A stretch of DNA of 64,000 nucleotides from Thunnus maccoyii. Lineage: Eukaryota; Chordata; Actinopteri; Scombriformes; Scombridae. Location of the stretch: the NCBI RefSeq assembly GCF_910596095.1, contig NC_056538.1:11464001-11528000 (forward strand), in the 5' to 3' direction. Every line of letters begins with the position of its first letter. Positions within the stretch are counted from its first letter, which is position 1. The position numbers and the translations under genes were made by a program. A model generated the notes under the pieces. It was not told the origin of the DNA. It saw nothing but the letters and a program-made list of their open reading frames with translations, and ran no database searches. Positions 36,101-44,129 of the stretch are shown in pieces.

Positions 36101-39100
36101 CACCCTTCTGTCAGCTTTGTCTTGGATCTATAATTTTCTCTAAACTATATACTATAAATACTTAATTCTATACTATATTGTAGTCTATATACTCCATAGA
36201 GTAGTGTCACCTTCATGATCAAAGTGACAAGTAGCAACATGTCACGCACAATATTTCTATGATCATTCAGTAGTGTCTGTGCTGCTGAAAATACACCCCC
36301 AGACCAAGTTACCTCTGTAACAAAATATTTTAGGGGAGACATGAGTACAGATATACTTTTTACTATAGATGTTTGGTGTAACCTGGGAGTAGAGCAGGTA
36401 ATGTGACTGTGGAAATTAACCTGCACTGACCGCGCTGTGCTCAGCTGCAACAGTTGCATAACTCGAGGTAAAGTTTATACCGTCAAAGTTGTGGTGTGTT
36501 TTGAAAAATGAACTTTATTAAAATGCTTAATGTCCACATCCAGTAAAAGAATACAAAACATGTATTTAGCCTAATCGCAGTTCTATTAAATTGAAATTGT
36601 AATTGCAATTATAGTATCAAGAATTAGGATAGGCATAAATGATAATCCTAAAGTTACCCTCCCATTGGGCCATCCCCCCTGCTAAAAATTAGCAAATCAC
36701 CTACTGAGTTTACCTCCTGTCCATACCTGTCAACTTGAACTGACTCTTAATTTCCTTCAGGCCCGTCTGTCCAGTCGTCACATTGACTAATCTTTTTGTG
36801 TTCTGCATGGTTTTAGTTCACGATAACACAATACATCATTGTAACATTAACTGCTGACTGCCACAGAGTTGTGAAGCATCGTGTTCCTACAATCACTTAA
36901 GTAATTAGTACTTTACAAGGTGCTATATGTTTGGTTTGCCTTGTGAAATGTGATGTTTTGTTTCATTATCATTGTTCTATTCATAAAGCATAATGTGTCT
37001 TTACTACATTTTGTTTTCAGTGACTTTCTAACAGTTTCCCTCCCAAAAGAAAATCCCTTCTCACACTGTAGCTCAAAATTGAAGCTACCCAAGAAAATAT
37101 GTACATAGATGCATTCATTTTACCTTCTGCAAATAACCCTTACAAGTTCTGCATTAACCATCTTTAAACATAGGATGATATGTCTATTATTCTTTGTACT
37201 TTCTTATTTTTTTATTTTACTTATATACTATACTCATTGCATTACAGGATATTGACATAGCTGCAAAATCCTGAATCACTAAACTGCTAGCTGAAGCTGA
37301 AGAAGATGGTATAGATTTTGTGAGTTTTTTAATAGCTAAAAACCCAACTCAAGAATTATATTCAGTTGAACTTGTGACCTTCTCTTTGTTATCCCAAAGA
37401 GTCTAATGCAGTGCTACAGAAAAGTGCAAAATAAGTTAAATTCTCTGAACCTGCCACATTTTGTTTCAGGCAGGAGTTCAGTTACCTCTTTGCTTTTGCT
37501 GTTCATGATGTAAATACTGATTTCACCTATAACAAAAAGGTTGTCTTCATAAGCAACTCACAACACATCATTGCAAACTTTTGAGTTTCCTCAGGACTAC
37601 TGACACTCCAGTCTGCACCTCTAAACTGCTACTACTTCCTCTCTCCTCCACTTTATTCCCAGGACTGACTAACATTCACCTTTTAAGTTTCTGAATCTCT
37701 CCAGCTGACCATCTGTTTGACCACTGCTAAACAACCATGCCATTTTTCACCTCATTTGTTTGCCTTGATTACCAGTTGTTGTTTTCACCTCACAATAAGG
37801 AGGTTCCAGTGGAGGAACGTAACGGGGATGCAGACGCAGAGGAGGAGCAGGCACAGGCAGCTGATGAGGAGGAAGGTGAGGAGGTAGCAGAAGCAGAGAC
37901 TGCAGAAGATGAAGCTGCGGAAGGCGAAACAGCAGGAGACGAGGAACCCGCAGAGGAGGAGGAGGAGGAGGAGGAGGAGGAGGAGGAGGAGGAGGCAGTG
38001 GAAGAAACAGACGAGGTCACAGAAGACACAGTAAATGCGACTTAACTAGAATCCAACCTCCTGTCATCGTTTTGCCTCTTCCTCCATCCCTTAAATGTTT
38101 TGAATGTTTGTTTTTTTCCTACATTTTCCCATAATTCCTGGAATGCTCTGTTTTTTTCCCCTCAGCATCTCCTCCTTCCCTTTAATGTTGTCCTTTTCTC
38201 CCATATTAAGGGTTTGCCTCCTTTTCAAGTTCCTGTCATCTTCGCACTGCATCTCCTCGTCAAGTCTCTCTCCCTAACCCACAATGTGCAACATTCATGT
38301 TTATTTGTCCCTTCAGCACCATTGGATATTAACCTCTTTACTGTTGCATTTATGTAACTTTTAATGTGTTTCTCTTTGTTTTCAATGTACAATGTAATTT
38401 GTCACCTCCCTTTGTACTCTATGGATGACACTGTTAGCACTGGTCTTGATAATCCAACACACATTGCACTGCATATCCCTTCACTATTAACTGTCCTGGT
38501 CAAAGTGTGTCAACTATCTTCTCTGTTTCCCAAATTTATAGTCTGACATCTCTAATACTATCTTATTTTTTTTGTCAGCAGGCCCATGTAGAAGAGGAAG
38601 AAGAACAGGTAAGTTTCTCAACAGTTTGTGGTTACACTGAAATCAAGTAAACACTCAAAACAACTGTGATTTTGTTTCTCCAGTGCTTTGACCAATCTTC
38701 ACCAATGTCCAGCCATGTCTGCTTCCCATTGATTTGAAAATGATTACTAACATGAGCTGATCTTGTTGGCTCTCTCTTACCCGTCAAATCTACTTGTGTA
38801 ATGCAAGGAGCGTCTTTCCTCAACGTGCCAGCAGATATCGCAAAGCAGAAGTTAGACAGATCATCAAAAGCTTAACCCTCACAGTTTTAAAAGCCTCAAA
38901 AGGAATTTCTACTCATGAGGACAAACAAGATACAAGGCAGAGTCACCAGAGGAGCAGGTTAAGCCAAGGCACACTTGTTTAAGTTTGTGCTCCTTAAAAT
39001 ATCCCATTTTCAACACTTTTTATTCACTAGTTTAATATATATTTGTGCCCAGACAGTGTGGTACATGTTTTACAGTTTCCACATGAAATATGTTGAAATG

Positions 39101-44129: not shown

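Follow-up and report, generated by a model that had tools for sequence, protein, structure and literature searches.

Repetitive charged segments encoded by optional small exons of one phase are found in titin (PEVK), triadin, and ASPH/junctin, where the exons are larger and the proteins different from the one described here. The closest known system is the acidic N terminus of fast skeletal troponin T (TNNT3/fTnT), a striated-muscle thin-filament protein in which small acidic exons of the same phase are reported to vary N-terminal length and charge (PMC2447309, PMC8559874, PMC1919359). The acidic troponin T forms are described as differing in their sensitivity to calcium and in how they hold tropomyosin when the pH is low (PMC8559874, PMC2447309), and according to work on halibut no more than two exons of teleost fast troponin T seem to be used alternatively (PMC1919359). 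A second point of comparison is provided by the RBFOX/PTBP1 microexons of vertebrate brain, heart, and muscle, the size limit for microexons being set at up to 51 nt (PMC4317164) or up to 30 nt (MicroExonator, PMC7821500). The protein that concerns us, SH3BGR, is reported to occur solely in skeletal muscle and the heart, where it co-localizes with sarcomeric alpha-actinin (PMC8541172); the human protein has also been studied as an inhibitor of STAT3 in cells of the endothelium (PMC4851422). Among the matches listed in the literature that we searched, a scope outside which most subscription journals and bioRxiv fell, no description of SH3BGR microexons was found.

The window analyzed here is a 64,000-nt stretch of the Thunnus maccoyii genome (C6:11464001-11528000), and genome-wide searches covered 782 Mb in 54 contigs. 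An SH3BGR-type gene lies on the forward strand with its complete coding sequence inside the window, and it begins with the following five exons:

30179..30223, + strand: SH3BGR exon 1, 15 residues, donor gtaagc; exons 1-3 are homologous to SH3BGRL/SH3BGRL2 structures
34273..34458, + strand: exon 2, thioredoxin-fold core, Pfam PF04908
34585..34665, + strand: exon 3, ending ...PPPPGSK; the SH3BGRL paralogue passes to its last exon at the same point
35287..35376, + strand: exon 4, acidic linker of 30 aa, weak donor ACA/gtaatg
37800..38030, + strand: exon 5, Glu-rich, 77 aa including 14 consecutive Glu; both splice sites weak

Exon 2 matches the Pfam SH3BGR domain (E value of 1.7e-25; 89.5 bits against a cutoff of 21), and exons 1-3 together match seven PDB sequences of the SH3BGRL family, including chain 8iah_Z from the spectrin-actin complex and the SH3BGRL chain 1wry (E value of 3.6e-47). 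Exons 4 and 5 add 107 acidic-tail residues with a net charge of -52. Upstream, Lebercilin matches on the reverse strand at 27.7 to 28.6 kb mark an LCA5L-like gene, and downstream lies an Ig-like frame that scores below the Pfam cutoff; this gene order fits the order LCA5L-SH3BGR-IGSF5 of human chromosome 21. On the basis of the PF04908 domain, the acidic C-terminal tail, and the LCA5L-like neighbor, we assign the gene as fish SH3BGR, and the Pfam domain together with the adjoining LCA5L-like gene bears out the identity proposed in an earlier note on this DNA. Two other loci of the family were characterized in this genome: the one on contig C8, with 1u6t (SH3BGRL) as its best PDB match, looks like SH3BGRL, and the one on contig C17, whose best PDB matches are 8iah_Z and 2ct6 (SH3BGRL2-type), looks like SH3BGRL2.

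Several other features surround the 5' end of the gene. The LCA5L-like gene (27682-28612, - strand) and SH3BGR (30179, + strand) are arranged head to head, with the SH3BGR start codon roughly 1.6 to 2.5 kb from the frames that match Lebercilin. About 120 nt upstream of that start codon, GT is repeated 26.5 times without interruption or mismatch (30005-30057). Within intron 1, the reverse strand carries a reverse transcriptase frame (RVT_1, 31781-32683; E value of 1.9e-21), next to which lies a second frame that matches nothing in Pfam; this interval (31781-33567) is probably a LINE-type element inserted on the opposite strand.

Downstream of exon 5, the acidic tail continues through seven candidate microexons (m1 to m7) and a stop exon:

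38582..38608, + strand: m1 (exon 6), AHVEEEEEQ, 27 nt
39180..39206, + strand: m2 (exon 7), EEDKQPYSK, 27 nt; TGCATG 269 nt downstream
39931..39954, + strand: m3 (exon 8), EEEDLQSE, 24 nt
40363..40389, + strand: m4 (exon 9), EEEELRQLE, 27 nt
42398..42421, + strand: m5 (exon 10), EQDQQGSE, 24 nt; TGCATG 106 nt downstream
42731..42757, + strand: m6 (exon 11), EEEEAEVQE, 27 nt; TGCATG 65 nt downstream
43837..43866, + strand: m7 (exon 12), 10 residues, 30 nt; acceptor of 3.9 bits, the lowest in the array
44112..44129, + strand: stop exon (exon 13), EEEAE and stop, 18 nt as the coding part of the last exon

The microexon array is confirmed as exon anatomy. All seven segments have GT-AG ends, every exon from exon 2 onward is in phase 0, and all seven fall within the size and symmetry expected of microexons (no longer than 51 nt and frame preserving), being 24 to 30 nt long and phase 0-0; the introns between exons 5 and 13 range from 245 to 2008 nt. 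This arrangement agrees with the earlier note, which had placed seven such segments, numbered exons 6 to 12, between a polyglutamate exon and a stop exon. Its remark that they usually start with EE holds for five of the seven, the exceptions being m1 (AH) and m5 (EQ). The predicted protein, to whose mass each microexon would contribute 0.90 to 1.23 kDa, has 278 residues with all microexons included and 216 with the array left out, compared with 239 aa reported for human SH3BGR, which also has an acidic tail (PMC4851422). The claim that any subset would keep the frame, giving 2^7 tails, was reproduced as arithmetic: the 128 subsets encode 128 distinct in-frame tails of 5 to 67 residues with charges of -4 to -35, their splicing being a prediction. 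In the all-in order, a Ser or Thr near the end of m2, m3, m5, and m7 forms an S/T-x-x-E motif with the Glu of the next exon.

To gauge how often such segments occur, acceptors and donors were scored against frequency tables for vertebrate splice sites, using the weakest of the seven as thresholds, and candidates had to be 18 to 36 nt long, divisible by three, and free of stops, with acidic residues making up at least 33%; the acidity criterion was chosen after seeing the array and was thus drawn from the array itself, so the contrast with the controls is somewhat flattered. The 6.3-kb array region holds 15 candidates of 18 to 36 nt, and 10 of these pass the rule (the seven microexons plus three acceptor variants). 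The same rule recovered no candidates on the forward strand outside the array (53.85 kb), one on the reverse strand (64 kb), none in 50 kb of both strands at SH3BGRL and two other paralogue loci, and a mean of 0.02 with a maximum of 1 across 150 Markov sequences. That we are dealing with exon look-alikes in purine-rich intronic DNA, with nothing spliced, is extremely improbable given 10 candidates in 6.3 kb against none or one per control. Single look-alikes are nonetheless common: a loose pattern consisting of pyrimidines, then AG, three GAR codons, and GTA occurs 250 times genome-wide, fewer than the 330 of its reversed control. Against chance there is also clustering, as SH3BGR is the only locus with three nonidentical pattern matches within 3 kb among the matches listed, which run from C1 to part of C8. 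Elsewhere, G000:C2:38035148-38040045 contains three identical AG-GAGGAAGAG...GTA matches within 5 kb and is seemingly a tandemly repeated segment. A search for a retrocopy of the spliced mRNA with an exon 2-3 query (89 aa) gave six genome matches, none of which spans both exons, each being confined to a single exon to within 7 residues. A relaxed scan of 34.7 to 47 kb recovered the exons already known together with variants of their acceptors and donors, plus six acidic candidates of poor quality (e.g., DIPE at 40564); controls at this setting are noisy, with 15 candidates per 51 kb and 22 per 64 kb, and an array of more than seven microexons in this interval was rejected.

Weak donors are typical of regulated exons, and at vertebrate donors the frequency of G at position +5 is 0.81. 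Both exon 2 and exon 3 have this G, but it is present in only one of the nine donors from exon 4 to m7, a deficit with a binomial P value of about 1e-5 under that frequency. Eight of nine tail donors without +5 G would suit optional exons, though their weakness is partly offset by AG/GT exon ends. TGCATG, an RBFOX-type motif, lies within 300 nt downstream of three of the seven microexons (m2, m5, and m6; P = 0.04, uncorrected), and the window as a whole shows no enrichment of the motif (53 found versus 56.4 expected). Regulated splicing of the microexons is suggested by these features. The sites also leave room for smaller variation: the acceptors of m1 and of the stop exon are of the NAGNAG type, with alternatives at 38579 and 44109 that would each add one Gln, and the acceptor of exon 5 at 37800 scores 1.0 bit, compared with 5.2 bits for an in-frame alternative at 37776 that would add LLFSPHNK (37776-37799).

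We consider it moderately probable that these are genuine, mostly optional phase-0 microexons that give a graded acidic tail to a thin-filament-bound protein. Counting against this reading are the weak acceptor of m7 and the weak sites of exon 5, the lack of TGCATG enrichment across the window, the small number of alternative exons in teleost fast troponin T, and the reported work on human SH3BGR in endothelial cells. The main competing account, which we hold to be somewhat unlikely, is that the microexons are real yet constitutive, forming one fixed acidic extension of 67 residues that was cut up by ancient intron gain. Strong acceptors at m1, m3, m4, m5, and the stop exon (10.8 to 14.4 bits) and donors of at least 7.9 bits at m1 and m3 are what a constitutive extension would lead one to expect, but the missing +5 G of the tail donors argues the other way, as do the skipping of comparable acidic exons in fish troponin T (PMC1919359) and the differential splicing, in charr white muscle, of a many-exon member of the SH3BGR family that is probably this gene (PMC8653899). 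Use of only part of the array, with m7 and perhaps m2 as cryptic or decaying segments, appears very unlikely: m7 has an unusual acceptor, caaag, and m2 combines a 5.2-bit donor with a place among the two least acidic segments, but every one of the seven is an open, in-frame segment with a length divisible by three, compared with 14 of 43 background candidates in the window. 

Two further features of the tail region would alter the C terminus by other routes. If the exon 5 donor were unused, read-through would reach a stop after VNAT (38031-38045), and the resulting protein would have a short tail lacking the array. A segment at 37248-37319, between exons 4 and 5, has a 7.5-bit acceptor, 23 residues, and a gtgagt donor; a single in-frame stop makes it look like either a disrupted exon or an alternative exon for the C terminus.

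The charr result depends on which gene was measured. In the Thunnus maccoyii genome, the SH3BGRL paralogue passes from GSK to a last exon (EAEALAKKAQQ and stop) about 0.4 kb further on. Exon numbers given by DEXSeq may stand for counting bins and not only for true exons. RNA-seq data from the white muscle of Arctic charr have been re-analyzed, and that study reports “SH3BGRL” as differentially spliced in all three lakes by two methods and names its exon 18 (PMC8653899). Because SH3BGRL here ends soon after GSK, we infer that the many-exon charr “SH3BGRL” more probably corresponds, despite its label, to the sh3bgr gene with the array.

If spliced as we propose, the array would work like the acidic cassette of troponin T without being troponin. 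Both genes have several small same-phase exons that encode acidic segments, but the SH3BGR array is C-terminal, has phase 0 on both sides, runs to seven exons in a row, and belongs to an unrelated thioredoxin-fold protein; the alternative use and function of the troponin T exons have been measured, whereas those of the SH3BGR array are predicted. The genome search listed no match to the troponin domain PF00992 on contig C6, and with the gene being SH3BGR the likeness would concern the mode of working only. To compare array sizes, we used seven candidate troponin loci picked from among the PF00992 matches of this genome, unannotated exon by exon and of putative troponin T status. Under the 18- to 36-nt rule the array has seven distinct phase-0 exons versus 0 to 2 (1 to 4 in any phase) at these loci, but under a rule of 9 to 75 nt and 40% acidic residues m2 and m5 drop out, leaving 5 versus 0 to 5. 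The proposition that the array is plainly longer than that of troponin T was therefore set aside, being true under the first rule and a tie with the largest locus under the second. Within the SH3BGR/SH3BGRL family (PF04908), exons 1-3 and the phase-0 boundary after GSK are shared, and a scan of three SH3BGR paralogue loci in this genome detected no comparable array. The RBFOX/PTBP1 microexons share size and frame preservation with the array, and three of the seven here have TGCATG downstream; what sets the array apart from them is the uninterrupted run of seven in one SH3BGR tail.

How such a tail might act can be sketched from relatives. SH3BGRL, SH3BGRL2, and SH3BGRL3 are reported to bind the pointed end of actin filaments, with the SH3BGRL C terminus possibly contacting tropomodulin; these three proteins, and not SH3BGR itself, are the ones that the report describes as assayed for pointed-end capping (PMC12827327). 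Thin-filament binding of SH3BGR is inferred from these paralogues. In the mechanism we envisage, the thioredoxin-fold domain (exons 1-3) would serve as the anchor, as in the relatives that bind the actin pointed end, and exons 4 and 5 would form a fixed acidic stalk. Combinations of exons 6 to 12 would then set the last 5 to 67 residues, with net charges of -4 to -35, ahead of the stop exon, with the choice among them made by the splicing factors of muscle according to fiber type or stage. The graded charge and length may thereby tune the contacts of the tail of a thin-filament-bound protein with its neighbors, much as segments of variable charge do in troponin T. The earlier note had proposed a “length-and-charge tuner,” and the frame-neutral array, the weak donors, the troponin T precedent, and the indirect charr RNA-seq report are in its favor; tuning itself is the best available reading, plausible but unproven. 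A bolder version, which we regard as unlikely, would be a combinatorial C-terminal charge code in which muscle-type-specific subsets grade acidity at the thin-filament pointed end and adjust a partnership with tropomodulin or other neighbors, and hence thin-filament length or turnover; such a code would have evolved independently of the acidic cassette of troponin T and be its second counterpart. As a guess, exon choice could also add or remove CK2-like phosphorylation sites at the S/T-x-x-E motifs.

Combinatorial splicing, if it occurs, would have several consequences. Up to 128 tails could come from one small gene, which would offer a natural series for the effects of length and charge in a disordered tail on a thin-filament protein, and work on fish SH3BGR with single cDNAs or short reads could miss most isoforms. 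The actin pointed-end activity of the family has only just been described (PMC12827327). Human SH3BGR lies in the Down syndrome region and has been studied in heart defects, according to two reports (PMC8541172, PMC11377721), so it would have some medical bearing to learn how much of the tail is ancestral.

With respect to the origin of the array, the earlier note had invoked tandem exon duplication, which our comparisons do not establish because the flanks look unrelated save for one weak match. When the 200-nt flanks were compared by BLASTN, leaving aside overlaps between neighbors and self-matches of exon 5, the best alignment was 33 nt at 82% identity between m6 and the stop exon (E value of 0.001 to 0.002). 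It consists of the pyrimidine tract and the EEEEAE/EEEAE start and extends less than 20 nt into the intron. The next best, 19 nt between m5 and m7 at noncorresponding intronic places, had an E value of 0.02, and trimmed 60-nt flanks aligned no better than random intronic 60-mers. The exon cores are similar in codon order slightly beyond their composition, to a degree reached by 4 of 400 shuffles, which may reflect homology or a crowding of GAR codons at the 5' end. We view tandem duplication, as opposed to intron insertion or exonization in Glu-coding DNA, as a tentative possibility toward which we do not lean: the shared phase, the similar length and start of the microexons, their codon-order similarity, and the m6-stop exon match speak for it, but the chance-level alignment of the trimmed flanks and the short reach of that match into the intron speak against it, and phase-0 AG/GAR starts are also expected from proto-splice sites. 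Old duplications could have lost their flank similarity, so that tandem duplication, if it took place, was probably old; intron gain or exonization at AG/G in Glu-coding DNA would explain the same facts. Separately, the intron between m4 and m5 contains an element of about 1.08 kb (40851-41927) that accounts for roughly half of the intron's length; its ends are inverted repeats of 32 nt with 91% complementarity, and it is probably a DNA transposon.
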